Shown in pieces: positions 1 through 41,832 of a stretch of 64,000 nucleotides of DNA. The notes under the pieces are model-generated. The model was not told the DNA's origin and ran no database searches. It saw only the letters and a program-made list of their open reading frames with translations. Each line of letters begins with the position of its first letter. The first letter of the stretch is position 1. This DNA is from a virus, in IMG/VR virus record IMGVR_UViG_3300033153_013649, positions 1 through 64,000 of that record; one strand, written 5' to 3'. The position numbers and the translations under genes are program-made.

Positions 1-13
1 ATTAATACTAAAA

Positions 14-418: not shown

Positions 419-422
419 AATA

Positions 423-1085
423 ATGAATAATTTATTTCCTCTCTTCGAAATGGCTTGTGATATTGAACAAGACATTATTACCGAAGAAAAATCTGGTATT
501 AAAAATATCTATTTAAAAGGGATATATTCACAAGGGGATATTAAAAATAATAATAATCGATCTTATCCAACTTCTGTTTTAGAAAGAGAAATTAAAAAGC
601 TTCAACCTAAAATTTCTTCTGGAATTGGATACGGAGAATTCGGACATCCAAAAACTATTGAAGAAATAAAAGAAATTAATCCTTCAAATGTTTCTCATAG
701 GATCGTTGAAATTAAAAAAAATAAAAACGAATTTCTGGGTAAATCGGTTTTAATTCCCGAAGGTCTCGGAAAAATGGCTATTCAAATGGTTGAAACAGGA
801 GGAAAGTTAGCTATTTCTTCAAGAGGATTAGGATCAGTAAATCGTAAAACTGGAATTGTTGAAAGTAATTATAGAATGATTACGTACGATCTCTGTTTTG
901 ATCCTGGTATGCCAAAAGCACAACAAACTGCAATTATGGAATCGAAAGATTTCTTTTTAGGAGAAAGATATTTTACAGAAGAAGAATGGAAAGTAATAGA
1001 AAAAAATAGATCACGAATACTAGAAACAGCGTTTTTTAGAACTGATTTACTTTCTGGATTATTAAAAATTCGTGATTCGATTTAA
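423..1085 (+). CDS. gp21: Prohead core serine protease, T4 gp21-like
   Basis: This 220-residue protein matches the T4 prohead protease family, which cleaves scaffold, capsid and internal proteins after L/I-x-E during head maturation. The family's two catalytic signatures are present: GEFGHP with His75, and AISSRGLGSV with the nucleophile at Ser132 or Ser133. Its own N-terminus contains L-F-E at residues 7-9, a possible self-processing site. It lies directly upstream of scaffold and major capsid genes, as in T4. The start is preceded by the short intergenic AATAAAATA and no strong Shine-Dalgarno, so translation may be coupled to the upstream gene. Confidence 0.9.
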   Translation: MNNLFPLFEMACDIEQDIITEEKSGIKNIYLKGIYSQGDIKNNNNRSYPTSVLEREIKKLQPKISSGIGYGEFGHPKTIEEIKEINPSNVSHRIVEIKKNKNEFLGKSVLIPEGLGKMAIQMVETGGKLAISSRGLGSVNRKTGIVESNYRMITYDLCFDPGMPKAQQTAIMESKDFFLGERYFTEEEWKVIEKNRSRILETAFFRTDLLSGLLKIRDSI

Positions 1086-1097
1086 AATATTTAAATT

Positions 1098-1105
1098 TAT
1101 AAATA
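1098..1105 (+). promoter_or_regulatory. Late promoter TATAAATA upstream of scaffold gene
   Basis: An exact TATAAATA, the T4 late promoter -10 element read by gp55, sits 60 bases before the scaffold start. There is no -35 element, as expected for this class. Confidence 0.7.
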
Positions 1106-1165
1106 ATATAAAGAAGTAATTGTAATATTAAAATATCATTTTAAAATTAAAGGGAATCAAATATA

Positions 1166-2056
1166 ATGGACAAAATCAAAATATTATTGGAAGAGCTTTC
1201 CAAAGATAAACCAGAAATTTTTGATAAAGATTTTTCTGATAAACTTTTTAAAGTAATTGAAGAAGTAGTCGAAGCTAAAGTAGAAGAAAAATATTCCAAA
1301 AAACTCGACGAAGAACTTTCCGAAGCAAAAACAAAGCTTGAGAAAGATTTGAGAACTCAAATTTCTGAAGAAACTAAAATTCAGATGAAAGAAGATCTTG
1401 ATAAATTAGTTAATACCCTTGATATTTTCTGTGAAGAAGCTTTTAAGGAATTTTCAGAGGAACATTCTGAAAAAATTGATGAATCAATTAAATCTAATGT
1501 TTCTTTAGATGTCGTTGAAAAACTTCGTGATGTTCTCGAAGAACATGGAATTAAATCTAATGAAACTCAGGTTAACGAAGAAGAATGGCAAGAAAAAGTT
1601 GATGCTTTAAACAGAACTATTGCTAATCTTACTCAAGAACTTTCTGAATCAAATCGTTCTAATGTCGCAAAAGAAGCCGTTGAAATCGTTGAAAGGCTTA
1701 CTGATGATTTAACTCTTGAACAAAAATCGAGAGTAACAAGACTTATTGAAGATTATGAAATCGATGATCTTGAACTATTTGAAAAGAAAGTTAAAAGTTT
1801 AATTAATCTTCTTGGATTATCTGAACAAGACGATGAAGATGAAGATGAAGAAGATGAAGATGAAGATAAAAACGGAAAGAAGAAAAAAGACAGAGAAAAG
1901 GTAAAAGAAGACTTTCTTAGAAATTCCGAAGAAAAAGAAGATAATAAGAACGTTTTAACTGAAAAAATTCCAGCTTTTACTGGAGTTACTAGCGGTCCTA
2001 ATCTAATGTCTAGAGTTAAACTTAATTTAGCCAAAAAACTGTATGAAGAAAAATAA
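1166..2056 (+). CDS. gp22: Prohead scaffolding core protein, T4 gp22-like
   Basis: This 296-residue protein is almost entirely charged and helical, with long coiled-coil-like stretches from about residue 20 to 215, then an Asp/Glu run (222-234) and a Lys-rich patch. That composition, its size and its position between protease and major capsid genes identify it as the assembly core protein. L-T-E at 264-266 fits the protease consensus and would release a short C-terminal peptide; L-S-E at 51-53 and 218-220 are further candidates. A late promoter and an AAAGGGAA ribosome site precede it. Identification rests on context and composition, because scaffold sequences diverge strongly. Confidence 0.8.
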   Translation: MDKIKILLEELSKDKPEIFDKDFSDKLFKVIEEVVEAKVEEKYSKKLDEELSEAKTKLEKDLRTQISEETKIQMKEDLDKLVNTLDIFCEEAFKEFSEEHSEKIDESIKSNVSLDVVEKLRDVLEEHGIKSNETQVNEEEWQEKVDALNRTIANLTQELSESNRSNVAKEAVEIVERLTDDLTLEQKSRVTRLIEDYEIDDLELFEKKVKSLINLLGLSEQDDEDEDEEDEDEDKNGKKKKDREKVKEDFLRNSEEKEDNKNVLTEKIPAFTGVTSGPNLMSRVKLNLAKKLYEEK

Positions 2057-2085
2057 TAATGATCATCATCTAAAAAAATTAAAAT

Positions 2086-2093
2086 TATAAATA
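2086..2093 (+). promoter_or_regulatory. Late promoter TATAAATA upstream of major capsid gene
   Basis: An exact TATAAATA lies 47 bases before the capsid ATG, in the short gap after the scaffold gene. It would give the most abundant virion protein its own late transcript. Confidence 0.75.
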
Positions 2094-2139
2094 GTAATGT
2101 ACTATGAAATATTGAACTTACAAATAAGGATTATAAAAA

Positions 2140-3687
2140 ATGCAAAAAGATAAAAATTTGAAAGATGTAATCATAGATTCTTATATTGAAAGTCTTTCCG
2201 AAGATAAATTATTTTCTAATGAACGAATAAAGGAAACTACTCGTATTATTCTTGAGAATCAATTTAATGATTTCGTCGAAACTACAAAAATTAGTCCGAA
2301 TAGAATCGCTGCACAATTAGTAGACAAAGAAGTTCTTGAATCTGCTGGTTTAACTGAAGTAGCTTCTTCGTATAGTTCTCAAGGAACTGAAGCGGCAGCC
2401 GGAGATATTGCACGATTCGGAGAAATTTATATGCCTATTGCAGCTAAAGTTATTCCGAGTCTCGTTATTAATAATATGGTCGGTGTACAACCGATGACTC
2501 AACCGAACGGCTTTGTATATGCAATGAGAGCTTTCTATGGAACAGGACCTTACGATTCAACTTCAGATCGTCAGGGAGCAAAATATCCGGGTTCGTCTGC
2601 TGCTATTGGCGATACTCAAATTATTAAAGTTGCTTCAGCTACAGGAATTTCAAAAGGTTCTTATCTTATTGATTCGGGAGATGCAGTAGAAGCTCTTGTA
2701 CTTCATATTGAAGATACGCTGATTGTAGTAAAGCATCTTAAAGCTTCAGTATTCGCCGTTTCTGACTCAATTGAAATTCAATCGGCTGCCGATCAAACTT
2801 ATTCCGGTGAAGATACAACCATTTCAGCAGTTTATACAAATGAAATAGCACAATCTCAAGGATTGTTTAAATATTATTCTGGATATTCTGGAACTTCTGC
2901 TTATACAACCGATCAAGGTATGTATGCAACTGATGTTGGTCAAGTAAATATCAAAATTGAAAGATCTACAGTAGAAGCTAAGACTCGTCAGCTCTTCGCT
3001 GAATATCCAATTGAAGCAGAACAAGATTTAAGAGCGATTCATAAACGTGATCTTCGGGCTGAACTTTCTGAACTTACTGCTGGAACAATTGTAAATGAAA
3101 TAGCAAAAGAATTTATTGACGAAATTGATGCAGGTGCTGATTCCGGTGGATCAACTACCGTTTCTTATGCTTCAGACCTCGATGGAAGATGGGAATCTGA
3201 AAAATTCCGTTCACTTTTTACTCGTCTTGTAAAGCTTTCTAATGATATTGCTATTGATACTCGTCTTGGACCGGGTAATTTTATTATTGCTTCTTCTGGA
3301 GTAACAACTGCTCTTTCTCAGTTAGATGGATTTAGTGCACATCCTCTTCCAAATCAAGCTACTTTTAATAATATTTCTAAAATAGGAGCTGATTGGTATG
3401 TGGGTAATATCGCAGGTATGTTCGATGTATATCGTGATATTTGGGCAACAACTGAATATGCAGTAGTTGGACGTAAAGGACCTAATGAATGGGACGCTGG
3501 AGTATTTTTCTTGCCTTATGTTCCTCTTCAGTTCTTTGCAGGAGTTACTCAAGAGAATTTACAGCCTAAGATGAAATTCATGAGCCGTTATGGAAAAATT
3601 GGACACATCTTGAGAACCAACAACGACGTTGCTGACTCTCGTTATTATAGAAAACTCACAGTTTCTGATATGTGGCCGGTTGCATAA
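2140..3687 (+). CDS. gp23: Major capsid protein, T4 gp23-like
   Basis: A 515-residue T4-type (HK97-fold) major capsid protein. It follows protease and scaffold genes and has the family's layout: a charged N-terminal delta region, then a body beginning GDIARFGEIYMPIAAKVIP. L-T-E at residues 71-73 (ESAGLTE/VASSYSS) matches the protease consensus and lies near the T4 cleavage site (residue 65), so the mature chain probably starts at Val74. The C-terminal part includes PLQFFAGVTQENLQPK and RYGKIGHILRTN. An AAGGAT ribosome site and a late promoter precede it, and a strong terminator follows, indicating a high-level transcript that ends here. Confidence 0.93.
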   Translation: MQKDKNLKDVIIDSYIESLSEDKLFSNERIKETTRIILENQFNDFVETTKISPNRIAAQLVDKEVLESAGLTEVASSYSSQGTEAAAGDIARFGEIYMPIAAKVIPSLVINNMVGVQPMTQPNGFVYAMRAFYGTGPYDSTSDRQGAKYPGSSAAIGDTQIIKVASATGISKGSYLIDSGDAVEALVLHIEDTLIVVKHLKASVFAVSDSIEIQSAADQTYSGEDTTISAVYTNEIAQSQGLFKYYSGYSGTSAYTTDQGMYATDVGQVNIKIERSTVEAKTRQLFAEYPIEAEQDLRAIHKRDLRAELSELTAGTIVNEIAKEFIDEIDAGADSGGSTTVSYASDLDGRWESEKFRSLFTRLVKLSNDIAIDTRLGPGNFIIASSGVTTALSQLDGFSAHPLPNQATFNNISKIGADWYVGNIAGMFDVYRDIWATTEYAVVGRKGPNEWDAGVFFLPYVPLQFFAGVTQENLQPKMKFMSRYGKIGHILRTNNDVADSRYYRKLTVSDMWPVA

Positions 3688-3712
3688 AATAAAGATTGAA
3701 ATTGAACAAATT

Positions 3713-3745
3713 AATAATCCCAGGAAACTTCTGGGATTATTTTTG
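3713..3745 (+). terminator. Intrinsic terminator after major capsid gene
   Basis: A perfect 11-bp stem (AATAATCCCAG pairing with CTGGGATTATT) with a 7-base loop runs into a T-rich tail. It closes the scaffold/capsid transcript and separates it from the homing endonuclease gene. Confidence 0.85.
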
Positions 3746-3803
3746 TTTTAAATTATATATATTAAGGTAAAGATAAACTTCATGACAAAATAAGGAAAGA
3801 AAA

Positions 3804-5294
3804 TTGTTTATAAGAGAATTTAAAGGGCTTCTTAAAGAAAAATATAATAAAGATATATCCAATTTTAATAATAAATCTTTAATAAATATTATTCGGCATC
3901 AAGGAATTTCAAACCTTTTATTTAAAGAAATAGAGGTTAATAATATAGGGGAAGGTTTATATTGTATTTTAAACGAGATTAAAGAAAAACCTAAATGTTT
4001 TTGTGGAAAAGAACTAAAATATATTAATTTTTCAAAAGGATATAGAGAATTTTGTTCTTTAAAATGTAAAACAAAAGGTGTTAGAAATAGAACTGTTCAA
4101 ACCTGTCTTAAAAAATATGGAACAACTACTCCATTATCAAATAAAAAGATACGACAAAAAAGCATTAATACCTGGATGAAAAAATATGGGGTTAATAATC
4201 CTTCTAAATCAAAAGAAATTATTCAAAAACTTCAAAAAAAATCAAAAAATACTTTAAAAAAAGAATTTTATAATTCATTATTCGACGAGAGATTAAATAA
4301 AAAAATTAAACCATTATTTAAATTTGAAGAATATGAAGACGTAAAAAAAGAATATTTCTGGGAATGTTTACAATGTAATAATAAATTTTATAGTAATATC
4401 ATATCAGGAAAAATACCAAGATGTCCAAAATGTTTTCCGAGAGATTCATCTTTTTTAGAAAAAGAAATTATAAACTTTATTATTTCTATAATTGGAACCG
4501 AAAAAATTAAAATTAATGATCGATCTTTTATATATCCTTATGAATTAGATACAGTAATTCCTTCTAAGAAGATAGCTATAGAATTCAATGGATTATATAG
4601 TCATTCCGAATTAAGCGGAAAAGATAGAAACTATCATTTGAATAAAACCGAAAAGTGTAAGGAAAAAGGCTATCAATTGATACAAATCTTTGAAGACGAA
4701 TGGCTAGACAAACAAGAAATAGTTAAAAGTATTTTAAAAGCTAAATTAGATTTATTTGACAGAAGAATTTATGCAAGAAAATGTATAATTAAAGAAGTAA
4801 GTAATAAAAAATCCCGGGATTTTCTTGAAAAAAATCATATCCAAGGACCAATTAATTCTTCCATAAACTATGGACTTTATTATGAAGAAGAATTAATATC
4901 TTTAGTTTGTTTTTCTAAATCCAGATTCTCTAAAAATTATGATTATGAATTATTAAGATTTTGTACTTCTTTAAATATTCAAGTAATAGGAGGATTTTCT
5001 AAACTCTTAAAATATTTTCAAAAAGTTAAACCAGAAGCAAACTTGATTTCATATTGTGATATTAGATACTCAAACGGCCAAGGATATTTAAATTCTGGAT
5101 GGAAACTTTTATATCAATCAAAACCAAATTATTGGTATTTTAATCAAAATCGAATTTTAGAATCAAGAATGAAATATCAAAAACACAAAATACCAAATGT
5201 AAATTTAAGCTTGACCGAATGGGAAAATATGCAGTTAAATGGATATGATAGAATATGGGATTGTGGGAACTTGGTTTTTTGTTTTTATAAATAA
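3804..5294 (+). CDS. Vsr-like (EDxHD) homing endonuclease, copy 1
   Basis: A 496-residue modular free-standing endonuclease. In order: a Cys cluster (C65, C67, C84, C88), DNA-binding repeats of the type KYGVNNPSKS at 103-140, a second zinc cluster (C188, C191, C207, C210), then a Vsr-like nuclease core with YELDTVIPSKKIAIEFNG and YSHSE (E247, D249, E260, H267). The last 160 residues form a separate domain (finding on the C-terminal module). The start is TTG; AAGGAAAG ends 4 bases before it and no in-frame ATG precedes the conserved part. It is inserted right after the capsid gene and is paralogous to the gene at 17477. The usual W before the catalytic H is S here. Confidence 0.85.
   Translation: MFIREFKGLLKEKYNKDISNFNNKSLINIIRHQGISNLLFKEIEVNNIGEGLYCILNEIKEKPKCFCGKELKYINFSKGYREFCSLKCKTKGVRNRTVQTCLKKYGTTTPLSNKKIRQKSINTWMKKYGVNNPSKSKEIIQKLQKKSKNTLKKEFYNSLFDERLNKKIKPLFKFEEYEDVKKEYFWECLQCNNKFYSNIISGKIPRCPKCFPRDSSFLEKEIINFIISIIGTEKIKINDRSFIYPYELDTVIPSKKIAIEFNGLYSHSELSGKDRNYHLNKTEKCKEKGYQLIQIFEDEWLDKQEIVKSILKAKLDLFDRRIYARKCIIKEVSNKKSRDFLEKNHIQGPINSSINYGLYYEEELISLVCFSKSRFSKNYDYELLRFCTSLNIQVIGGFSKLLKYFQKVKPEANLISYCDIRYSNGQGYLNSGWKLLYQSKPNYWYFNQNRILESRMKYQKHKIPNVNLSLTEWENMQLNGYDRIWDCGNLVFCFYK
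4698..4749 (+). repeat. 52-bp exact repeat shared with 18500-18551
   Basis: These 52 bases are identical to the second homing endonuclease gene, in the segment encoding EWLDKQEIVKSILKAKL. Flanking codons differ, so the identity exceeds what protein conservation requires. Confidence 0.9.
4821..4861 (+). repeat. 41-bp exact repeat shared with 18623-18663
   Basis: These 41 bases, encoding FLEKNHIQGPINSS, are identical to those in the second homing endonuclease gene. They are a second island of exact identity between the two copies. Confidence 0.9.
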
Positions 5295-5317
5295 TTAAAA
5301 GAAGTTTTATTCAGTTG

Positions 5318-5352
5318 AGGGGTAAGGTTTTTCTTCTCCTTTACTTACCCCT
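5318..5352 (+). terminator. Possible hairpin after homing endonuclease 1
   Basis: A 9-bp stem (AGGGGTAAG with CTTACCCCT) with a 17-base T-rich loop lies between the endonuclease and the next virion gene. There is no clear U-run after it, so it may be a weak terminator or a processing structure. Confidence 0.4.
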
Positions 5353-5382
5353 TCTTCTGATATTAAATAAAAAGGAAATATT

Positions 5383-5763
5383 ATGGAATTTATATTTACA
5401 AGATTAAGACCAAATATAAAATCATCAATGACTTTTTCTGATTATAGACCTCATAGATATATAACTTTTATTCCTGGTGAATGGAAGAAAGTACATCCTT
5501 CCGTTTTTCAGAATAATAAAAAATATTTAGAATTAAAAAGAAAAACTGAATCTATATTAAAAACCGAAGAAAGAGAAGATTCTGAAGCATCCGAAGAATT
5601 AATCGAAATTCTTACCGATAAAGCTCCAGATGCTCTCGAAGTAGAAATTGAAGAAATGGACGGAGAAGTTGAACCGGAAAAAGCTTGGACAATTGAGGAT
5701 ATGCCTCCCGGATTATCTTATTATAAACAACGCAAATGGAAGAAAGAAAAAGGACTTTTATAA
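5383..5763 (+). CDS. Small acidic protein of unknown function, virion gene cluster
   Basis: A 126-residue protein I do not recognise. Residues 1-45 include a compact stretch (FSDYRPHRYITFIPGEWKK) of the kind seen in small head-completion proteins. The middle (60-100) is strongly acidic, and the C-terminus (PPGLSYYKQRKWKKEKG) is basic. Its stop codon overlaps the start of the gp13-like neck gene (TAATG), so the two are probably translationally coupled. An AAAAGGAAA ribosome site lies 7 bases before the ATG. Confidence 0.7.
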   Translation: MEFIFTRLRPNIKSSMTFSDYRPHRYITFIPGEWKKVHPSVFQNNKKYLELKRKTESILKTEEREDSEASEELIEILTDKAPDALEVEIEEMDGEVEPEKAWTIEDMPPGLSYYKQRKWKKEKGLL

Positions 5764-6434
5764 TGTCTAAAGCAAATCCAACAAATTTATCTGAATTAAA
5801 AGATTATATAAAAGCTAAACTCGGTTATCCTATAGTTTCAATTGAAATTGATGACGATCAGTTAAATATTGTTATAGCTGATACTTTAGAAAAATTTTAT
5901 GAATATAATTATGATGGATCTGAAGAAAAATTTATTGAAATAACAATTGAAGCAACTTCTGTTTCGAATGGAGAATATGTTTTTGATGGAAGTACAGACC
6001 CGGATAATATTATTGCTATTAAAAAGGTTTGGGGATATGATACAATTGTCGAAGCATCATTAAGAGGAACTACTGAATCCTTTTATCAAATTATGAAAAA
6101 TAAAGAATATAAATTTGATTATAATCCCTATAATAATACTCTTCGAATATTCGATCAATTAGATACAGATAGAAAATTTTTAATTGCATATTTAGTTCCT
6201 ATAAATGCAGAATCTAATCCTTCTGTATATAATGATAAAACAGTTAAACAATATGCAACAGCACTAGCTAAAGTACAATGGGGAACAAATTTAGGAAAAT
6301 ACGGATCAGTAATTCTTCCTGGAGATATGGAATTAAAGGGAGATGATATATTAACTGAAGGTAAAGAAGAGCTTGAAAGAGCAGAAGAATCAATGGATAG
6401 TCATTCGTTCCCTGCTTTACCTATAATAGCTTAA
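5763..6434 (+). CDS. gp13: Neck protein, T4 gp13-like
   Basis: A 223-residue protein opening with NPTNLSELKDYIKAKLGYPI and continuing with IEIDDDQLNIVIADTLEKFYEYNYDGSEEKF. That N-terminal pattern is typical of gp13-like neck proteins of T4 relatives, which close the head after packaging and form the tail docking site. It is followed by a gp14-like and a gp15-like gene, which strengthens the call. I chose ATG 5763, which overlaps the upstream stop codon, over an in-frame ATG at 5736 that would begin inside the previous gene and add nine unconserved residues. Confidence 0.7.
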   Translation: MSKANPTNLSELKDYIKAKLGYPIVSIEIDDDQLNIVIADTLEKFYEYNYDGSEEKFIEITIEATSVSNGEYVFDGSTDPDNIIAIKKVWGYDTIVEASLRGTTESFYQIMKNKEYKFDYNPYNNTLRIFDQLDTDRKFLIAYLVPINAESNPSVYNDKTVKQYATALAKVQWGTNLGKYGSVILPGDMELKGDDILTEGKEELERAEESMDSHSFPALPIIA

Positions 6435-6454
6435 AAAAATTATAAGGAAAAAAT

Positions 6455-6787
6455 ATGAAATATAGAGAAATTTTAGAAGTTAAAAAAGAGAAAAAAGATG
6501 TCCAGTATTTTTTCGATGAATTAGGAGATCTGGATGATACCCGGGCGCTAGGATTTTATGGGATTTTAAAAGATAATACATACTATCTTTTGAGTTCTGA
6601 TAGTGAAAATCCATCTATTTTTCAGAAAGCTACCCCAAAAGATCAAAAAAGATTAAAAATGCATTTTAAAAAGAAATTAATGCGTTTTGTCGATAAGAAA
6701 GAATTTCAAACTGCATTAGCGGGGGAATTTCATGGAAAAACTATAAAGATTGAAGATAAAACCCGTGGTTGGTCAGAAGGAGAATAA
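6455..6787 (+). CDS. Unknown protein with capsid-targeting-like N-terminus
   Basis: A 110-residue protein of no recognised family. Its first eight residues, MKYREILE, fit the pattern of T4 capsid-targeting peptides, which end in L/I-x-E and are removed by the prohead protease; cleavage would leave a basic mature protein of about 102 residues. It lies between the two neck genes and has an AAGGAAAAA ribosome site. A packaged internal protein is an inference from the N-terminus alone. Confidence 0.7.
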   Translation: MKYREILEVKKEKKDVQYFFDELGDLDDTRALGFYGILKDNTYYLLSSDSENPSIFQKATPKDQKRLKMHFKKKLMRFVDKKEFQTALAGEFHGKTIKIEDKTRGWSEGE

Positions 6788-6827
6788 ATATTATTCTTTA
6801 CCAATAATGATATAAGGAATAAAAGTA

Positions 6828-7454
6828 ATGACTAAACCTGCAAACGCTTCGAAATGGTTTTCTTTCAATACTGATCATTTAGTTGATTATCAGAAAGCTT
6901 GTTTCGGAGAAGCAGTAAATCTTTTTGGCTGGAATTGTAAATATCTTCCAATAGAATTTGTAGAAGGGGATATTAATTGGGTATTCGGAGAAATTCCAAA
7001 GATCAAATATACTCAAGCTTTTGACTTAAGAATTCATATTGTTGGATATAAAGAATTATATGAAGCAATCGGTGATTACACTAAATTCGGTATGTTATTA
7101 ATGCCAGAAGGTTTAAAAGCTACCGTAGGAAAAGATGATTATAGAAGTATCGTAATTGATGGATCTGGAAATTTTATAAATCCACATCCGGGAGATCTGA
7201 TTATGTTTAGAATTCATAAAGATGACATAATCTTAGAAGTTACTGATGTTGGATTAATGTTTGATTCATATTACGATTTAGATCTTAAATTATATAACTA
7301 TGATGCTCTTACTACTATTAGTACTGATACTCCAGCAGATAATATTGATATTCCAGAAGATTTTCCATCTGATAATAATAATGAAAAGATAGAAGAGCAA
7401 AATGAACAATATCAGGATCACACAAAACGACATCAAACCTGGGGAGCTTATTAA
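6828..7454 (+). CDS. gp14: Neck protein, T4 gp14-like
   Basis: A 208-residue protein resembling T4 gp14, the second neck component joining head to tail. The N-terminal pattern (KWFSFNTDHLVDYQKACFGEAVNLFGWNCKYLP, described in parts) matches gp14 proteins, in which a helix is followed by an ALN-x-[FY]G-x-x-x-x-Y-[IL]P motif, here AVNLFGWNCKYLP. It sits between gp13-like and gp15-like genes as in T4. The last 45 residues are polar and acidic, probably flexible. It ends with an ATG overlap into the next gene (TTAATGG), suggesting coupling. Confidence 0.72.
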   Translation: MTKPANASKWFSFNTDHLVDYQKACFGEAVNLFGWNCKYLPIEFVEGDINWVFGEIPKIKYTQAFDLRIHIVGYKELYEAIGDYTKFGMLLMPEGLKATVGKDDYRSIVIDGSGNFINPHPGDLIMFRIHKDDIILEVTDVGLMFDSYYDLDLKLYNYDALTTISTDTPADNIDIPEDFPSDNNNEKIEEQNEQYQDHTKRHQTWGAY

Positions 7455-7816
7455 TGGGAAGATTTAAAGAATTATTAGAAGCAAAAGTTCCAAATGCTAA
7501 AACAATTGCTCAAAAAATTGTAAAAGAATTGAAAGGACCAGGATTTGGAATGACCGAAGCAGGAGGAAACGGACGAGCAATAGTAAAAGGATCAAATTTT
7601 CAAGTTTGGAATTCATATTATTATGATCGAAATAAGCAGCTAGCTAATCTTTATGACGGATGGAATCCTAAAGGAAAAAATCCTTATTATGCAAATTACT
7701 TTGGTGAAAAATATAATGTAGATTTTAAAATAGTAAAAGACGGAGAAAAAGATGAAGTAAAAAGAGATCTTTCTTGGGTATGGATAGAAATTAAAGTGAT
7801 TCCAAAAGGAGAATAA
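7454..7816 (+). CDS. Unknown protein with capsid-targeting-like N-terminus
   Basis: A 120-residue basic protein with an aromatic-rich middle (VWNSYYYDRNKQLANLYDGW) and no family I recognise. It starts MGRFKELLE, ending in L-L-E, which fits a prohead-protease cleavable capsid-targeting peptide. It is sandwiched with overlapping ends between gp14-like and gp15-like genes, so it is made with neck proteins. Packaging in the head is inferred, not shown. Confidence 0.7.
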   Translation: MGRFKELLEAKVPNAKTIAQKIVKELKGPGFGMTEAGGNGRAIVKGSNFQVWNSYYYDRNKQLANLYDGWNPKGKNPYYANYFGEKYNVDFKIVKDGEKDEVKRDLSWVWIEIKVIPKGE

Positions 7817-8670
7817 TGGCATATTATCATTTTAAAATTTTGGAAAAAATCACCAGCGGAATATTAGATCTTTTTAATGAAATATATATTAAAAAATGGA
7901 AATGGATCGGAGGGAGTTCTCAGTGGGAACTTCAAGATCATTTAGTTCCTATTGAAATAGCTACAAAAGGTAGAATTATTCGAGAATATGAAAATATTAA
8001 ATCTGGAACCATTCGAACCGGGGGAGCAGTAAAAAGACAAGCTAATATTCCTAGAATGGCTTTAATGCTTATAGATTTGAATTCAAAAGTTGAATTTAAA
8101 AATAGTTCTTTAAATCTAGTTAAAGGAGCTACAGCAAATGAATTAGGAATTTTGAAATATGTTCAAGCTCCCTTATGGTTACAAGGATCTTATGAATTAT
8201 CAATTATCACTAGAACTCTGGATGAAATGAGTCAGATCATAGAACAGATATTACCTAGATTCAATCCTCATTTTCCTATAAATGTTCGTATAATTCCAGA
8301 AATTGATTTAACAGTTTCTCTACCAATTACAGTTGAAGCAGCCGTTCCCTTTGAAATTGAAGAAGACTTAGATAAAGAATCAATTAGATTTATCCAAGCA
8401 ACTTTACAAGTTTTGGCTCCAATGCCAATATTTTCTCCATTAACAGAGGGGAAAATTATAAAAAAGATAATATCAAGTTTTGGTACACTAAATGCAGATG
8501 GAACTTACGCTTTACAAGAAATATTTAATGATTTTGCTTTCGATGGAGGGGCTGGAGCAGTTGAAACCTATACTTCAGAAGCAACTTTTGAATGGGATAC
8601 AGATATTGATGCTTCTGGAGCAATAGCTGAAGCAATATTATCAGAAACAACATTTACAATAAACGCATAA
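7816..8670 (+). CDS. gp15: Proximal tail sheath stabiliser / tail terminator, T4 gp15-like
   Basis: A 284-residue protein matching T4 gp15, which caps the tail tube and sheath and binds the neck. Diagnostic stretches are an IPRMALMLIDL segment (about residue 74), APLWLQGSYELSI, and IIEQILPRFNP followed by INVRIIPEIDLTVSLPI (about 137-175), corresponding to the T4 pattern of P-R-M, then V-E-Q-I-L-P-x-F, then I-P. The last 60 residues are extra and less conserved. It overlaps the previous gene by one base (TAATGG). Confidence 0.85.
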   Translation: MAYYHFKILEKITSGILDLFNEIYIKKWKWIGGSSQWELQDHLVPIEIATKGRIIREYENIKSGTIRTGGAVKRQANIPRMALMLIDLNSKVEFKNSSLNLVKGATANELGILKYVQAPLWLQGSYELSIITRTLDEMSQIIEQILPRFNPHFPINVRIIPEIDLTVSLPITVEAAVPFEIEEDLDKESIRFIQATLQVLAPMPIFSPLTEGKIIKKIISSFGTLNADGTYALQEIFNDFAFDGGAGAVETYTSEATFEWDTDIDASGAIAEAILSETTFTINA

Positions 8671-8683
8671 AAGAGGACAAAAA

Positions 8684-8896
8684 ATGAAATTTTCAGAAAT
8701 AATAAACGAAGAAACTCCTAAAAATATTGAAAATACTCAACTGTTAGCTGATATTGCAAAAAATGTTGGTGACTTGAAAGCAATATTAAAGGACGTAGAT
8801 GATCCAATGGAGTATTTTAAAAATATGAAATTAAAAGAAGGCAAAGTGTTTCTTAAGAAATTAAGAGCTCTTGTTGACCATTTAATGAAAATATAA
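8684..8896 (+). CDS. Small protein with capsid-targeting-like N-terminus
   Basis: A 70-residue helical protein of unknown function. MKFSEIINE at the N-terminus ends in I-N-E, the prohead-protease consensus, so a 61-residue mature packaged peptide is plausible. An AGAGGA ribosome site is correctly spaced. It has no other motif; the remainder is lysine-rich and helical. Confidence 0.65.
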   Translation: MKFSEIINEETPKNIENTQLLADIAKNVGDLKAILKDVDDPMEYFKNMKLKEGKVFLKKLRALVDHLMKI

Positions 8897-8908
8897 AGGG
8901 AATAAATT

Positions 8909-9337
8909 ATGGCTCAAGCAGAAAGTTGGACATTAGAAGGATGGAAGAAAATTCTAGATCAGTTCTTTAAAATTTCAGGAACAGATTCAGAAGATCTAGA
9001 ACTTATCTTTTTTTCCAATAATTTTACTCCAACAGTAAATACACAAAACTCAGACTTAACTGTAATAAATGATAATGGATTAGAAAATCAAGATCTTGTC
9101 AGAGCAACCTGGCAATCAGCTGATGATGATGGAAATGATATTGTTTATAGTGATTATGATACAAATCCTATAGTTCTTAATATTACAGGTACTCAAAATT
9201 GTTATGGATGGGCAATTAGAGGGAAAACAAGTAATGTAATTTATTATGCTAAAAATCATGGATTAAAATCATTAGAAAATAGTGACACCGTCACAATGAA
9301 TAATTTTAATATGAGAATTAAAATCGTCCCATCATAA
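8909..9337 (+). CDS. Probable small virion protein, unknown
   Basis: A 142-residue acidic protein with a C-terminal beta-rich part (YGWAIRGKTSNVIYYAKNHG, then SDTVTMNNFNMRIKI). This resembles a pattern in small phage structural or fibre proteins in which a short hairpin precedes a G/S-D-T-V strand. No specific family is assigned. It lies between neck and terminase genes with an AAGGGAA ribosome site and lacks the capsid-targeting-like start of its neighbours. Confidence 0.6.
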   Translation: MAQAESWTLEGWKKILDQFFKISGTDSEDLELIFFSNNFTPTVNTQNSDLTVINDNGLENQDLVRATWQSADDDGNDIVYSDYDTNPIVLNITGTQNCYGWAIRGKTSNVIYYAKNHGLKSLENSDTVTMNNFNMRIKIVPS

Positions 9338-9356
9338 ACAAAAAAGGAATTAAAAA

Positions 9357-9815
9357 ATGAGTAAATTTATTAAAGAATTTTTAGAAGATTATATAACAGT
9401 AACTACAGAAAAACGCCTTGCAAACGCTCGAGCTGGATTTGATCAAGAAATAAATGAACCAGAACTCTTCGAAGAAATGATTAAAGCTAAGGGGCAATTA
9501 GAAAAAGCAATGGAAAGACTTTTTGAGGTTGATATTACTCTAACCGAAGGAAAAGGGCTTCTTGGTCGTTATTCAATGAGTTTTACTGGGACTGTTAACC
9601 TAAAAGGATTACCAAAATTATTTTCCGGTATTATGAAAAAAGCCAAAATCAGTCTTAGTACTAGTACTGGAAATCCATTTTCGAAAACTCCAGATATTAT
9701 TTATCTAGATGTAGAAGATAATCAAGGAAGACAAATAATTGGCGCTAAACCCGTCGGATATACAAGATATAATCTAAAAACTAAGAAATGGCTTATGAAG
9801 AAAGAAAGATTTTAA
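9357..9815 (+). CDS. Unknown protein, possible packaged internal protein
   Basis: A 152-residue protein with a helical N-terminal half (about 25-60) and a beta-rich second half (GRYSMSFTGTVNLKGLPKLF). The start MSKFIKEFLE resembles the capsid-targeting-like peptides of neighbouring genes but ends F-L-E, not a perfect L/I-x-E; L-T-E appears near residue 63. An AAGGAAT ribosome site precedes it. No family recognised. Confidence 0.6.
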   Translation: MSKFIKEFLEDYITVTTEKRLANARAGFDQEINEPELFEEMIKAKGQLEKAMERLFEVDITLTEGKGLLGRYSMSFTGTVNLKGLPKLFSGIMKKAKISLSTSTGNPFSKTPDIIYLDVEDNQGRQIIGAKPVGYTRYNLKTKKWLMKKERF

Positions 9816-9820
9816 TTAAT

Positions 9821-10492
9821 ATGAACCGATTCAGAAAAATATATCTTAGAGAAAAAAGATCTCATCCTGATATAAATAAAAAAATATCTGGATATGAAGC
9901 TTTATTGCCGTATAAAAATGATCCAGATATTTATATTTCTTATACTTCTCTCAAAAAAATCGGTATAAATCCGAGTTCAAAATATAATACCCCGATTGGA
10001 ATTTATACTTATCCATTAAAAGAAATATTTCCTATGATAGCAAAAGCTGCAGATTCAGGAAACGTTCCTTTTGGTGGAAATAATCCTTATATTTGGATTT
10101 TAAGATCTAAAAATAAAAAAATTTTTGTAAAAGATGTATATAAATATTCTTCAAAAGATTATAATAGAGACATAAAAAAGATAAAAAAATTATATAGTAA
10201 TCTTAAATTTGTAAAGTACAATAACATAGATTCATTAATAAAGTATAGTATAGAAGAAGTTGATTTTAAATCTCCTTTTAGAATATTCTGGAATATTACA
10301 AGAAATCTAAGTTCAGCTATTAATCCAGGAAATGCAAATAAAACTTGGAACTCTGTTCTTAGAAAATTAGGATATACTGGATTCGCTGATAAATCGGGAT
10401 GGGGTTTTATTCATGAAGCTGAACGAATTCAAGCTGTATTTCTATCAAAAGATGCTTTTACTATCGAAGAAATGATTAATAATATTCCTTAA
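9821..10492 (+). CDS. Unknown protein with polyvalent-protein-like (possibly ADP-ribosyltransferase-like) C-terminus
   Basis: A 223-residue protein. The ATG at 9821 follows the previous stop by five bases; an upstream in-frame ATG at 9788 would begin inside the previous gene. The start MNRFRKIYLRE ends L-R-E, so it may carry a cleavable capsid-targeting peptide. The body has TPIGIYTYPL (about 67), VPFGGNNPYIWIL (about 86) and, near the C-terminus, LGYTGFADKSGWGFIHEAER followed by IQAVFL. This G-Y-x-G...H-x-x-E...Q-A-V-F order recalls domains of phage polyvalent proteins, some of them ADP-ribosyltransferase-like. That assignment is tentative; no catalytic triad is proved. Confidence 0.6.
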   Translation: MNRFRKIYLREKRSHPDINKKISGYEALLPYKNDPDIYISYTSLKKIGINPSSKYNTPIGIYTYPLKEIFPMIAKAADSGNVPFGGNNPYIWILRSKNKKIFVKDVYKYSSKDYNRDIKKIKKLYSNLKFVKYNNIDSLIKYSIEEVDFKSPFRIFWNITRNLSSAINPGNANKTWNSVLRKLGYTGFADKSGWGFIHEAERIQAVFLSKDAFTIEEMINNIP

Positions 10493-10542
10493 AAATACTA
10501 ATATAATTTACCATCCAATAAACGGAATTATAAAATAAAATT

Positions 10543-10836
10543 ATGAAAAAATTTTCAACAATACTAAATGAAAAACTAGTAAAATGGACTAATATTTCTG
10601 AAAAAGAATATTTTAAGATTTATAATAAATATGAAAAATTATTAACAGTTTTCAGTTCATTTACAAACAAAACTCCAGGGGGAAGTTCGAGTCCGGGAAA
10701 TTCAATGACTGAATGGGGATTTAGTAATGAAGATGATCCTTTGTTAAAATGGGTATCTACTCCTTCTCCAAAGAATCCAGAAGAACTACTTTATTCTTTT
10801 TATGTAAATAAAAAACAATTAAAGAAGATAAAATGA
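10543..10836 (+). CDS. Small unknown protein with capsid-targeting-like N-terminus
   Basis: A 97-residue protein whose start MKKFSTILNE ends L-N-E, the prohead-protease consensus. The middle is Gly/Ser-rich (TPGGSSSPGNS, about 45). It overlaps the small terminase gene by four bases (ATGA), so it is coupled to it. The family is unknown; packaging is an inference from the N-terminus. Confidence 0.6.
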   Translation: MKKFSTILNEKLVKWTNISEKEYFKIYNKYEKLLTVFSSFTNKTPGGSSSPGNSMTEWGFSNEDDPLLKWVSTPSPKNPEELLYSFYVNKKQLKKIK

Positions 10837-11333
10837 AAATAGATAAAATAAATCAAAAGCTTGGGATAAAACAAACAGAAGAAGCTACAGATTTAACTGA
10901 AATTGAAAAGGAAGATGAATTAATTCCTTACACAGAAAATCCAGAGTTAATAAAAGATATTGATCAATATAAGGAAGAAAGAGCTCAAAATATTGAAGTC
11001 TTAAAAGAAGCTAGAGATCAAATAGCAAGAGTTATAACTGATTTAGGAGCAAAATTCTCTTTTCCTATTACAGAGGACGGAAAAATAATAAAGATAGGAA
11101 ATAAAGACCTCGAAGCTTTTGCAAAAGTTGTAAAATCTTTAGCAACTATTACTGATACTTTAGATAAAATTTCAGATCCGCAAAAGGTTGAAGGATATAT
11201 TGACCCCCCTCAGAAAGAAGAAAAAGGTCCAGAAAATGTAACAAATATTCAAAATAATTTTATGCTAAATCCAAATCAATTATTAGATATGATAGATTCT
11301 TCTATAAAAAAGGCTAATAACGGTGATAATTAA
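10833..11333 (+). CDS. gp16: Terminase small subunit, T4 gp16-like
   Basis: A 166-residue, largely helical protein directly upstream of, and overlapping by one base, the large terminase gene; T4 gp16 is 164 residues in the same place. The central helical segment (EERAQNIEVLKEARDQIARV, about 48-67, and LEAFAKVVKSLATITDTLDK, about 90-109) is the coiled-coil expected to form the regulatory ring. The C-terminus (NIQNNFMLNPNQLLDMID) fits interaction tails of small terminases. The call rests mainly on position, size and helical pattern. Confidence 0.72.
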   Translation: MKIDKINQKLGIKQTEEATDLTEIEKEDELIPYTENPELIKDIDQYKEERAQNIEVLKEARDQIARVITDLGAKFSFPITEDGKIIKIGNKDLEAFAKVVKSLATITDTLDKISDPQKVEGYIDPPQKEEKGPENVTNIQNNFMLNPNQLLDMIDSSIKKANNGDN

Positions 11334-13030
11334 TGCCAAGAAAAATAGAAAAAGCTCCCGAAATAGAATACACGAACGTTCCATATAGTTTTCTAGGTTT
11401 CTCTGGAATAAAACCTCCAGGAACAAATATTGATTATACTCCAGAAATGATAAAAGAATTCGTAAAATGTTCTCAAGATCCTCTTTATTTTATTACAAAT
11501 TATTACTATATAGTAGAATTAGATAAAGGATTAACAAAGATAAATTTATGGGATTTTCAATATGATTTCATCGATCATTTACATAATAATAGATTTTCAA
11601 TTATATTAGCATCTCGTCAAGTTGGAAAATCTATTATCTCGGTTGGATATATTTTATGGTATATTTTATTTCATCCTTATAAATATGTTGCAGTCCTTTC
11701 TAAAAAGGCAAAAGATGCTTCGGATATAATGAAAAAATTAAAACGTTCTTATGAAAGCATTCCTCAATGGTTACAGCAAAATGTAGCTGGATGGGCTCAA
11801 ACTTCTATTACATTAGAAAACGGATCAGAAGTTACCTCTCAAGCTACAACAGAAACAGCAGGAAGATCTGCAAGTGCTAATATATTATTTTTAGACGAAT
11901 TTGCTTTTGTTCCTCAAAACATAGCAACCGATTTTTATAAATCAGCTTATCCTATTATTTCAAATTCAAAAGAATCAAAAGTCATTATTTGTTCTACCCC
12001 AAACGGCCATAATCATTTTTTTATGATGCTTGATAAAGCTAGGAAGGGAGAAAACGCTTATAAAGATTTTGTAATCCATTGGACTCAGGTTCCTGGAAGG
12101 GACGAAGAATGGAAAAAAGAAACAATTGCTAATTTAGCAATCAATCCGCATATTGACGATGCTAATTCTACTTTTGCACAAGAATATGATCTCAGTTTTG
12201 AAAATTCTGATAAAAAAATACTAATCGGCCCAGGTATACAAAGAAGAATTGCTAATCATATTTCTAATAATGTTAAAGAAATACAATCCTCTATTGCAGA
12301 GTTAAAGGAAATGGATCATTTAACAATTTTTGAAGACCCAGATCCAGGATTTGGTTATTATATTTCTGCTGATGTTGCAGAAGGAATCGGAAAAAATTAT
12401 AGTGTTGCTCATGTACTTAAACTTCTCCCGGAAGGATATAAGCAAGTTGCAATATATAGAAATAATTCTATAATTCCTGTAGCATTTTCTTATGTAATTG
12501 AAACAATAAGTAAAGCATATAATAATGCTTCAATTTTAATAGAAAACAGAAATCCTGGAAATTCAACTTTAGATCATTTATTTTATATGATCGAATCTCA
12601 AAATGTAATACATTCTTCTTTCAAGAAAAAAGACGAATTGGGAATTAAAACTACTAAAAAAAATAGAGACAAAGGTATTACAAAATTAAAAGAATATCTT
12701 GAATATGAAATTTTAGAAATCAATGATTTTATTACTTTTGGAGAAATAACAAATTTTGTAAGAAATAAATTTGGTAAATTTAAAGCTGAATCTGGATGCG
12801 ATGATACTGTTATGGCATTAGTATTATTTTGTTATTGGACAACAAGAGAGGAATTTGAAGGATTTGGATCTGACGAAATTTTAAGAAAGACTAGACAAAA
12901 AATCGAAAAAGATAATCCATATTTATTAGATTTAAATAAGATAAATAAGTTAGAATCAGAAAAAGGAGGAATTACTGTAGTAAATAATTTGGATTATGTA
13001 ACTTATCTTAATCTTAAAAGAAAAAAATAA
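11333..13030 (+). CDS. gp17: Terminase large subunit, packaging ATPase-nuclease, T4 gp17-like
   Basis: A 565-residue headful packaging motor. ATPase domain: Walker A SRQVGKS at 94-100, Walker B ILFLDEF at 184-190, coupling motif CSTPNG at 220-225. Nuclease domain: acidic residues D347 (YISADVAEG), E404 (ILIENRNPG) and D490/D491 (SGCDDTVMALVLFC), matching the T4 D-E-D triad. It acts at the prohead portal, translocating and cutting concatemeric DNA. It is slightly shorter than T4 gp17 (610). The start overlaps the gp16-like stop (TTAATGCC). Confidence 0.95.
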   Translation: MPRKIEKAPEIEYTNVPYSFLGFSGIKPPGTNIDYTPEMIKEFVKCSQDPLYFITNYYYIVELDKGLTKINLWDFQYDFIDHLHNNRFSIILASRQVGKSIISVGYILWYILFHPYKYVAVLSKKAKDASDIMKKLKRSYESIPQWLQQNVAGWAQTSITLENGSEVTSQATTETAGRSASANILFLDEFAFVPQNIATDFYKSAYPIISNSKESKVIICSTPNGHNHFFMMLDKARKGENAYKDFVIHWTQVPGRDEEWKKETIANLAINPHIDDANSTFAQEYDLSFENSDKKILIGPGIQRRIANHISNNVKEIQSSIAELKEMDHLTIFEDPDPGFGYYISADVAEGIGKNYSVAHVLKLLPEGYKQVAIYRNNSIIPVAFSYVIETISKAYNNASILIENRNPGNSTLDHLFYMIESQNVIHSSFKKKDELGIKTTKKNRDKGITKLKEYLEYEILEINDFITFGEITNFVRNKFGKFKAESGCDDTVMALVLFCYWTTREEFEGFGSDEILRKTRQKIEKDNPYLLDLNKINKLESEKGGITVVNNLDYVTYLNLKRKK

Positions 13031-13050
13031 TTTCTAATAAAAATGAAATT

Positions 13051-13058
13051 TATAAATA
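13051..13058 (+). promoter_or_regulatory. Late promoter TATAAATA upstream of first sheath gene
   Basis: An exact TATAAATA lies 72 bases before the first tail sheath gene, in the gap after the terminase. Confidence 0.7.
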
Positions 13059-13130
13059 TAGATATAAAAAGGTAAATAATCTTTTAAAGAAGAAAAGATT
13101 TAAATCAAAAATAAATTAAGGAAAATATAA

Positions 13131-15095
13131 ATGGCGATACGTCCTAATTATCCTGCAGTAAAATTTGAGGAAAGAGATTTTACATTAAGTATTACTCCTA
13201 CTGTATCATCTATTGGAGCCATGGTTGGAAGATTTCAAAGAGGACCAATTGGGAAAGCTACTCTTATTTCTAATAAAGCTGAATTAATTGAAATTTTTGG
13301 TTTACCAACTACAGCTCTTGATAATTTAGCAGATTGGTATACAGTTAAGAACTTTTTAAATTATACAAGTGGAATATTAGTTCTAAGAGTAGCAGATTCA
13401 ACTGCAATGAATGCCGGAAAAACTTTTAACGACGGTTCTGCTAGTGCTATTGACGCTTTTGCTCAAATTCCCGATGGATATGACATGAGTGGAGTTTCAG
13501 ATATTACTAATTCTGGAATTAATATTGTAGCAAAATATCCGGGAACCTATGGAAATAATATTTCCGTTTCTCTTGTTTTCGAAGATGATTTAAGAATGGG
13601 TCTTACTGATTCTGGATCAGCTCCCGAATGGGATGGAAAATATTATGATAAAAGAGTTCAATTTACAATAGATTCAGCTTCTGGAGCAGCTGTTGGAGAA
13701 TATGTAATTACAGAATATTATAACGATACTACAAAACAAAAATCTTATACTGTTGGATTAGTTTTAGCAGTAGATGAAGCTGGATCAACAAAAACTATAG
13801 ACATTGCTTTTAATGGAGATGATCCTCCCACCCCGGGAAGTTCAGATACATATAAATTAAATAATGGACAAAGTTGGGATGATTCAGGGGCAGTTACTAT
13901 TAGTAATTCAGGTTCAGTTACAGTATTAAATTTCAATACTATAATGAATTATTTTAACGAAGAACTCGACACAGATCAATATGCAATTGTTGTATTTGAA
14001 GATGATAAAGACGGAAATGCTCAATTTAAAGAAAAACATATAGTTTCTCTTACATCAACAGATAAAGATTTCAATGGCAGATCAATATATATTGAAGATT
14101 GGTTAGAACAAAATTCTGCTTATATTTCAGCTGTCTATAATGATGATTCTAATACAGCCAATGGATCAGTTGGAACAGCAACTAAATTAGCTGGAGGCCT
14201 CGATGGTTCTGCATTAACAGCCGGAGATATTATTCTTGCAATGGATCCTGTTTATAGAGATAAGCAATTAGAATTTGGATATTTAATAGACGGAGCTTGG
14301 GCTGGTAATGTAACAGTAATGAATAATATAATTTCAATCGTTGAACAAAGATTAGATAATTTTGCTATACTATCATGCGGAACGGGAGTTTCTGTTTCTT
14401 CTGACGCTGATTTTAAATCAGATGTTCAAACGATGAGGGAATCATTAAGTGATTCTTCTTATTATCATTTTACAGGAAAATTTAAAATTCAATTTGATCC
14501 TTATACAGGAAAGAATTTCAATTGCCCTATTTCTGGAGATATAGCAGGAATATTTGCTCGAACAGATATTTTAGGTGAAATATGGCTTCCCCCTGCTGGA
14601 TATAATTATGGAGAAATCCAAAATATAGTAAAATTACCAATAAATGAATCAAAAACAACTCAGGGAATATTCTATAAAAAACAAATTAATCTTGTTATTC
14701 AAGATAAAAAGTTTGGCGGATATTTCCTTATGTCACAAAAAACAGGAACAGGACGTCCAACTGCATTTTCTGATGTAAATATAAGAAAACTATTTACATA
14801 TACAGAAAACAATATATTAAATTTTTTAAAAACATATTTATGGGAATTTAATGATACGATAACAAGAGAAATTATATCTTCGAGAATAAATAATTTTCTT
14901 GCTACTATTCAAGCAAAAGAAGGAATCGTTGAATATTCTGTAATTTGTGACGAAACAAATAATACTGATGATATAATCGCATCAAATATTTTGATAGTAG
15001 ATATTCTTATTAAACCTTCAAAAGCTATTCATAATATTCATATAAGATTTACTGCAACTAATAAAGATGCGACAGCTTTAGAATTGAATGCATAA
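13131..15095 (+). CDS. gp18: Tail sheath protein, T4 gp18-like, paralogue 1
   Basis: A 654-residue contractile sheath protein, close to T4 gp18 (659). The N-terminal arm PNYPAVKFEERDFT and the following GAMVGRFQRGPIGKATLIS are family signatures. The conserved C-terminal core has a phage-sheath pattern (QLNLVIQDKKFGGYFLMSQK region, then FSDVNIRKLFTYTENNILNFLK and FLATIQAKEGIVEYSVICDE), ending VDILIKPSKAIHNIHIRFTA. The middle (about 100-380) is variable and probably surface exposed. It is followed by a shorter paralogue after a 19-base gap, so both subunits come from one transcript. An AAGGAAA ribosome site is present. Confidence 0.92.
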   Translation: MAIRPNYPAVKFEERDFTLSITPTVSSIGAMVGRFQRGPIGKATLISNKAELIEIFGLPTTALDNLADWYTVKNFLNYTSGILVLRVADSTAMNAGKTFNDGSASAIDAFAQIPDGYDMSGVSDITNSGINIVAKYPGTYGNNISVSLVFEDDLRMGLTDSGSAPEWDGKYYDKRVQFTIDSASGAAVGEYVITEYYNDTTKQKSYTVGLVLAVDEAGSTKTIDIAFNGDDPPTPGSSDTYKLNNGQSWDDSGAVTISNSGSVTVLNFNTIMNYFNEELDTDQYAIVVFEDDKDGNAQFKEKHIVSLTSTDKDFNGRSIYIEDWLEQNSAYISAVYNDDSNTANGSVGTATKLAGGLDGSALTAGDIILAMDPVYRDKQLEFGYLIDGAWAGNVTVMNNIISIVEQRLDNFAILSCGTGVSVSSDADFKSDVQTMRESLSDSSYYHFTGKFKIQFDPYTGKNFNCPISGDIAGIFARTDILGEIWLPPAGYNYGEIQNIVKLPINESKTTQGIFYKKQINLVIQDKKFGGYFLMSQKTGTGRPTAFSDVNIRKLFTYTENNILNFLKTYLWEFNDTITREIISSRINNFLATIQAKEGIVEYSVICDETNNTDDIIASNILIVDILIKPSKAIHNIHIRFTATNKDATALELNA

Positions 15096-15114
15096 CAAAA
15101 AGGAATTAATATAA

Positions 15115-16818: not shown

Positions 16819-16823
16819 ACATT

Positions 16824-16831
16824 TATAAATA
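16824..16831 (+). promoter_or_regulatory. Late promoter TATAAATA upstream of tail tube gene
   Basis: An exact TATAAATA lies 22 bases before the tail tube ATG, in the 35-base gap after the second sheath gene. Confidence 0.7.
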
Positions 16832-16853
16832 TATAAAAAAACAAGGAAACAAA

Positions 16854-17381: not shown

Positions 17382-17393
17382 TTAAATTCTTTT

Positions 17394-17425
17394 AAAAGAA
17401 TCGTTGCGATTACGATTCTTTTTTA
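17394..17425 (+). terminator. Intrinsic terminator after tail tube gene
   Basis: An 11-bp perfect stem (AAAAGAATCGT with ACGATTCTTTT), a 7-base loop and a T-run. It ends the sheath/tube transcript ahead of the second homing endonuclease. Confidence 0.85.
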
Positions 17426-17476
17426 TTTCTAATTTTAATAATATAGTAACATAACATCAAATAAAATAAGAGCATT

Positions 17477-19114: not shown

Positions 19115-19153
19115 AAACCGGTATAAGAGGGTTTAAATCCGACGGCTTATTTT
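19101..19153 (+). terminator. Probable terminator overlapping the end of homing endonuclease 2
   Basis: AAGCCGTC pairs with GACGGCTT across a 32-base loop, followed by ATTTTT. The left arm lies within the last codons of the endonuclease gene. Confidence 0.6.
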
Positions 19154-19177
19154 TGTGCAAAAAAACTAAAAAAGTTG

Positions 19178-19206: not shown

Positions 19207-19235
19207 ATATAGAAGATAATAAGGGAGAGAAGAAA

Positions 19236-41256: not shown

Positions 41257-41832
41257 ATGAAATCATTTAAAGAAACATTAAGTATTTTAGAAAATACTGA
41301 TAATTCTGATATTCTTTGGGAATGGACATCAAAAGCTAAAGATGTTTGGCTAAAAAAGAACAAGGATGCTTCATTTACAACAACTAAGGTAAGGGATACT
41401 TTTCTAATTTCTTGTGGGCCTCTTGAATATTATTATGATGGTATATGGAAAGGAAAACACGGAGCTTTTAAATTAGCAGCAATCGATGCTACTAAACCGA
41501 AAGATCTGCCAAAGGATTTTAATACCTTCTTTTCAATGCTTCAAAAAAAATATAATGATATACGAAGAGAAATGGAAAAGGGAACAGATTTAGCATTTAA
41601 TAAAATCTCTAAATATATAAAGAAAATGGAAAATAATGAAGATTTAAGAATAATTAAAGAAAAGGGACCGAGGGAATATCCTCAGGTAGTAGTATTTCTA
41701 AATAATAAATCAATATATGCAACAAATGGAACAAATTATATACAAACATTAGGAAGAGGCATTCCTAGTTTTAAAGAATTTTCTGATATTATAAAGATAA
41801 AAAGATTTAAAAGTGAATTCGGAAGAGTATAG
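41257..41832 (+). CDS. Unknown protein with capsid-targeting-like N-terminus
   Basis: A 191-residue protein of unknown family. Its start MKSFKETLSILE ends I-L-E, fitting the prohead-protease consensus and the capsid-targeting-like peptides found in the neck region. The mature part contains DTFLISCGPLEYYYDGIWKG (about 48-67) and a basic helical stretch (100-130), and is lysine-rich. It lies between the spanin-like and peptidase genes. Confidence 0.6.
   Translation: MKSFKETLSILENTDNSDILWEWTSKAKDVWLKKNKDASFTTTKVRDTFLISCGPLEYYYDGIWKGKHGAFKLAAIDATKPKDLPKDFNTFFSMLQKKYNDIRREMEKGTDLAFNKISKYIKKMENNEDLRIIKEKGPREYPQVVVFLNNKSIYATNGTNYIQTLGRGIPSFKEFSDIIKIKRFKSEFGRV

Follow-up and report, generated by a model that had tools for sequence, protein, structure and literature searches.

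Several small genes between the neck genes of an uncultured virus (IMG/VR record IMGVR_UViG_3300033153_013649, 159,837 bases) encode proteins that begin with similar short peptides, which raises the question of whether these N-termini direct their proteins into the phage head. The first-pass annotation saw leaders like capsid-targeting peptides on five of them, and a near match on a sixth, suggested that the proteins may be an injected payload set spread between neck genes, and pointed to a gp21-like protease in the window; all of the N-termini that it named were present where it had placed them. The window referred to here is the first 64 kb of the record. The remaining genome was fetched and its ORFs were listed, giving a set of 206 ORFs in 160 kb for the genome-wide counts.

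Head and neck genes of the window

Judged from its sequence, the source virus is an uncultured, distant phage of the T4 superfamily. Its terminase shares no more than 38% identity with cyanophage gp17 proteins among the matches listed, nothing closely similar to bases 1-20000 at the DNA level was found in the phage collection, and a search of IMG/VR for close relatives by way of the major capsid protein and TerL found none. A T4-like gene order is nevertheless recognisable (21-22-23, 13-14-15 and 16-17-18-19; Table 1), in which gp16 and gp18 are putative assignments made from position and sequence. The gp21-like protease anticipated in the window was borne out by family matches above cut-off, and its own N-terminus, MNNLFPLFE, resembles the LIE-9 of T4 gp21. 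The gp22-like scaffold protein, which is presumed to be the docking site for the leaders, starts with MDKIKILLEE. The gp23-like capsid protein carries L-T-E73 (codon ending at 2358) in the region of T4 LTE65 and is predicted to be cut by the protease after this residue.

Five leader genes of the window are placed between, or just after, the neck genes: 6455 is flanked by the gp13-like and gp14-like genes, 7454 by the gp14-like and gp15-like genes, and 10543 immediately precedes the gene that occupies the gp16 position, its MKKFSTILNE being in the same register as MKTYQEFIAE of T4 IPIII. The ORF that contains 9821 opens at 9788; homologues support the internal ATG at 9821 as the start. Most of the cargo in the window had no known homologue in PHROG and Pfam profile searches or in the phage collection. 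Specifically, the 6455 protein had no family match in the profile searches, 7454 and 9357 had no homologues in the phage collection, and 7454 weakly matched a virion structural protein in PHROG.

Table 1. Head, neck and leader-bearing genes of the window; a slash marks the predicted cut.
Feature	Coordinates	Strand	Support
gp21-family prohead protease (Peptidase S77)	423..1085	+	PF03420 3.4e-15, over cut-off; phrog_207 1.6e-39
gp22-like scaffold/core protein	1166..2056	+	PF25623 T4_CASP 9.5e-19, over cut-off; phrog_237 2e-16
gp23-like major capsid protein	2140..3687	+	T4 gp23, 31% identity; phrog_138 4e-74
gp13-like neck protein (head-tail adaptor Ad2)	5736..6434	+	phrog_211 8e-27
Leader gene, 110 aa, MKYREILE/VKKEKK, predicted cut after E8	6455..6787	+	profile rank 3 in genome
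gp14-like neck protein (head closure Hc2)	6828..7454	+	phrog_679 1e-9
Leader gene, 120 aa, MGRFKELLE/AKVPN, predicted cut after E9	7454..7816	+	rank 19, 0.08 expected by chance
gp15-like tail sheath stabilizer	7816..8670	+	phrog_227 3e-30
Leader gene, 70 aa, MKFSEIINE/ETPKN, predicted cut after E9	8684..8896	+	rank 11, 0.01 expected
Near match MSKFIKEFLED, unsupported as leader gene	9357..9815	+	not in top 50 of profile scan
Leader gene, 223 aa, MNRFRKIYLRE/KRSHPD, predicted cut after E11	9821..10492	+	rank 20, 0.09 expected
Leader gene, 97 aa, MKKFSTILNE/KLVKW, predicted cut after E10	10543..10836	+	rank 17, 0.05 expected
gp17-like terminase large subunit	11333..13030	+	cyanophage gp17, 38% identity
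Possible leader gene, 191 aa, MKSFKETLSILE/NTDN	41257..41832	+	rank 29, 2.7 expected by chance (weak)

Inspection by eye suggested three further features. Two similar homing-endonuclease-like ORFs follow the capsid gene (3804-5294) and the tail tube gene (17477-19114), and two tail-sheath-like paralogues are adjacent (13131-15095 and 15115-16818). The topoisomerase II gene at 53167-56641 appears to be in pieces: an intein-like N part (CLEENTEVLVLNHNKL...) closes its upstream ORF, ORF 56006 starts with an intein-like C part ending GLISHN/S (similar C parts occur at genome positions 91459 and 120662), and a separate homing endonuclease-like ORF, 54817, lies between the two. Apart from these, a T4 30.3 homologue at 143697-144281, outside the window, is extended at its N-terminus by approximately 36 residues that resemble the beginning of the neighbouring gene 143214.

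Recurrence of the leader across the genome

The first ten residues of IPIII suffice for its packaging in T4; within the leader, positions 4 and 7 serve targeting and positions 8 and 10 processing, gp21 cuts after L/I-x-E, and D at position 10 stops processing, not targeting (PMC9026906). A leader with the approximate consensus MKYKEIL-x-E starts at least 20, and perhaps 29, of the 206 ORFs studied here. We searched for it with a strict pattern (an aromatic residue, two residues, two hydrophobics and E), which was defined after the window genes had been read but follows the published T4 rule. The pattern was found in 17 ORFs against 0.7 expected, with a maximum of four in 1000 shuffles, and at only 3 of 596 internal Met positions. 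In T4 (237 ORFs) it occurs at the first start codon of IPII and IPIII only. Two further window matches to the strict pattern, 16854 (the tail tube protein) and 57996, are probably due to chance and were set aside.

As a guard against circularity, the training set of a profile was confined to leader genes beyond position 64000, and this profile was then used to score all ORFs. The five highest-scoring ORFs of the window were 6455, 8684, 10543, 7454 and 9821, with no more than 0.09 expected genome-wide at each score, which upholds five of the six neck-region genes proposed by the first-pass annotation; the sixth, 9357, was absent from the top 50 and was rejected as a member of the set. Twenty ORFs, comprising 11 training members and nine others, scored above the level at which 0.1 is expected by chance, and approximately nine more are plausible (131476, 136880, 138906, 139311, 143226, 156187, 157138, 97971 and 41257). 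Most of the set lies outside the window, in clusters at 95.1-98.4 kb and 131.5-140.5 kb, and the neck region thus holds only a minority of it.

With paralogues excluded, 96 pairs of N-termini were similar against 7.6 expected, and there are only two paralogous pairs among the cargo, so that one leader stands on otherwise unrelated proteins. When leaders of this genome were picked by their first five residues, 10 of 12 contained [IL]-x-E. Within the whole set, leader 138094 has no E nearby, and 134207 and 157138 end in IYLDP instead of E, which counts against the reading; under the T4 rule the latter two would be expected to be packaged but clipped poorly or elsewhere. A late-promoter-like site, TATAAATA, precedes leader gene 135929 by 31 bases and is also found near capsid, tail tube and baseplate genes, but it was given no weight, as the motif occurred 44 times against 48 in shuffles. 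A scan of viral contigs with the pattern MKYxEIL-x-E returned 46 loci, most of which were not gene starts, and little use was made of it.

Leader dialects, cargo and homologues

Related phage contigs carry repeated leaders of their own, namely MISFK-x-FL-x-E in approximately 20 genes of G001, MR(I/Y)NQI-x-E in approximately 15 genes of G008, and MKKLLTEWRKFLKE and MKITKSQLRKIIKE in approximately 18 genes of G013. The G013 leaders are missed by the strict pattern, under which the contig seems leader-free, and were revealed by an unsupervised test. Among leaders picked by their first residues alone, in this genome and the related phages, 46 of 49 contained [IL]-x-E, whereas a control region lying 20 residues further along these proteins contained it in 5 of 49. 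Of 19 leader-bearing proteins chosen for their cargo motifs, 14 scored highest with the dialect of their own genome, a comparison in which G004 supplied three training leaders only and the YHxx cargo motif is crude; on this evidence the leader tends to follow the genome, not the cargo. Of nine contigs with clear leaders, five had a recognisable gp21-family protease, as did none of four leaderless ones, all records that may be fragments; this co-occurrence is consistent with capsid targeting, not decisive. No strict leaders were found in Melnitz and S-RSM4, the closest well-known T4-like genomes, which were sampled in part.

The sequences somewhat favour a broader model, in which each T4-superfamily phage would have its own dialect matched to its own core protein, amounting to a private packaging code. 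Effectors that are fused elsewhere into giant polyvalent proteins would then be loaded singly, and a captured gene would become payload on gaining the local leader.

The cargo proteins that could be identified are of types reported or predicted in injected virion proteins. Gene 134207, outside the window, encodes a polyvalent-type InPase of a curated family (PF18823, E 4e-41, residues 19-154). Its relatives in phages bear annotations as minor head proteins and DarB-like proteins, and this domain is predicted to be virion-packaged (PMC5512222). The genome also encodes a P-loop kinase and a cytidylyltransferase-like protein (a nucleotidyltransferase) as cargo, and in the related phage G001 the cargo includes two ART-PolyVal proteins, one of them with a GNAT domain; ARTs are reported to be packaged frequently in myovirus virions (PMC9503650). 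Homologues of the kinase (132927) in the T4-like phages HTVC008M and Melnitz have the short starts MIPFILKE/G and MKTFAELQE/G, and a fused homologue in Agrobacterium phage Atu_ph07 starts with MKWNDLNE/A; the Atu_ph07 region that precedes the kinase resembles an ART, though only by eye. PADLOC returned only marginal matches on the cargo. In G008, from L153 onward, an MR(I/Y)NQI-x-E-type leader is soon followed by a YHxx motif, ART-like by eye, in at least six genes, which suggests a battery of injected ART-like proteins in one phage.

The 9821 protein belongs to a family with the motif GINPxxxYNTPxGIY, for which a motif scan returned 72 loci, and most members of the family bear leaders. In 34 non-redundant members, which are related sequences and not 34 independent events, the conserved mature start (e.g. 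ARRNPEQNPK) comes immediately after an 8-13-residue leader whose last residue is E, and the E boundary is kept while the leaders change. The third residue back from the predicted cut, a position unused in defining the boundary, is I or L in 29 of the 34. Some homologues (L066, L128, L101, L117 and L124) have S or A, not E, before the mature start (VEIS/ARVN, VVLA/TRSN, VSIA/ARKN), which may reflect altered protease specificity; the contig of L066 and L128 gave a weak protease match only. On contig G012 (L178-L185) four leaderless paralogues of the family stand in tandem at approximately 60.6-65 kb, and neither a gp21-family protease nor a T4-like terminase was found on this contig.

The AF2 model of the 9821 protein has a pLDDT of 89, falling to approximately 57 over the first 20 residues, as expected of a removable leader. 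The best Foldseek match of the model was a cyanophage pre-ejectosome chain (E 4e-4; Z 7.9 in a second structural comparison), followed by RES-type toxins and PARPs at Z 4-5. The invariant residues of the family are GINP, YNTPxGIY, D190, H198 and E201. An ART reading of the modelled fold is tentative, as Z values under 8 may reflect a common arrangement; a PDB sequence-profile search with the family found nothing.

Proposed packaging and alternative readings

The sequence-level features of a T4-type capsid-targeting sequence (CTS) are found together in this genome: a short leader (8-11 residues here, 10-19 in T4) with an aromatic residue near position 4 and a hydrophobic one near 7, L/I-x-E, genes for protease and core, and the attachment of the leader to unrelated proteins. 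On the basis of the protease, the scaffold and the L-T-E capsid site, the shared leader, its [IL]-x-E and the cargo relatives among virion-injected proteins, we put the probability at approximately 0.83 that this phage uses a dialect of its own of the T4-type CTS, by which proteins would be packaged into heads, clipped and injected. The leaders most likely send at least 20 otherwise unrelated proteins into the head, with the tag clipped, for delivery into the next bacterium. By analogy with T4 we infer that during late assembly the 8-11-residue leader would dock the protein onto the prohead core, probably the gp22-like protein, and that the gp21-like protease would then cut after L/I-x-E and the peptide would leave. 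The mature protein would stay in the head with the DNA and be injected at the next infection. This payload would comprise approximately 20-29 proteins, mostly from the two clusters outside the window with the neck-region genes as a minor share, and would include enzymes likely to disarm or reprogram the host (the InPase, the P-loop kinase, the nucleotidyltransferase and possibly ART-like proteins).

Among the alternatives, we consider it unlikely that the leader instead brings structural or scaffolding parts to the prohead core, where they would be clipped and stay or leave and would not be injected effectors. T4 core proteins gp21 and gp22 do bear L/I-x-E near the N-terminus, as do the protease and scaffold here, and the leader genes of the window sit among head and neck genes; however, the cargo is large in number and variety, and its domains are enzymes of injected proteins (kinase, InPase, nucleotidyltransferase, ART, GNAT), not scaffold-like. 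Another sorting or regulatory tag, for tail or neck docking, stability or translation, or a recombination relic of copied 5' ends, is less probable still. At 80%, against 64% predicted from codon usage, identical codons are in moderate excess in the leaders, which fits some copying of 5' ends, but synonymous codons differ between leaders, and together these values indicate at the sequence level that selection acts on the leader peptide and that 5'-end recombination may contribute. A different tag would also have to reconcile the agreement of the motif with the T4 signal, including the cut site, the presence of the protease in the genome, and the E boundary retained by the 9821 homologues through changes of leader.

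Least credible is chance resemblance in an AT-rich genome rich in K, I and E. Bare L/I-x-E within 11 residues is indeed common, at 40 of 206 ORFs against 17.5 in shuffles, and as such is weak evidence, but the excess of the full leader and the T4 and G012 controls argue against chance, and for the five window genes the held-out profile contradicts it.

Both the CTS and variable internal proteins have already been described from T-even phages (PMC9026906), and at least ten internal proteins have been described, many of them found through the signal sequence (PMC12373910). The injected arsenal of T4-like phages has so far been known singly, as three internal proteins and Alt in T4 and at least ten internal proteins in relatives. 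In our literature search, which was of incomplete coverage, we found no account of leader sets as large as this one, of dialects, or of individual leaders on polyvalent-type domains. Provided that the leader code holds, the payload of an uncultured phage can be listed from its sequence (here 20-29 proteins, approximately 10-14% of ORFs), and it becomes testable how many proteins a phage injects, how they affect host defences and whether packaging is keyed to its own core. The code would also be a route to new anti-defence proteins among small homologue-free ORFs.

The system resembles T4 IPI, IPII, IPIII and Alt, which have a gp21-processed CTS, in its leader with an aromatic residue, a hydrophobic pair and L/I-x-E, in its gp21-family protease and gp22-like core, and in the unrelated bodies behind one leader. 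It differs in consensus (MKYKEIL-x-E, as opposed to MKTYQEFIAE), in the number of genes (approximately 20-29, against four), in having enzyme cargo, and in that most of the genes are clustered away from the head genes. In phiKZ and SPN3US, likewise, a gp21-related protease cuts the ejection proteins of the head after x-x-E, but most of the propeptides there are long, several of them exceeding 100 residues, and the cut follows an S/A-x-E or A-x-E motif. Polyvalent proteins, including DarB-like antirestriction proteins (Iyer et al. 2017, PMC5512222), share the InPase and ART-PolyVal domains and are predicted to be packaged and injected; there the domains form one giant fusion, whereas here each stands on a small protein of its own behind an individual leader. 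Contig G013 encodes an intermediate form, a protein of 1868 aa with a leader-like start and a GINP-like region.
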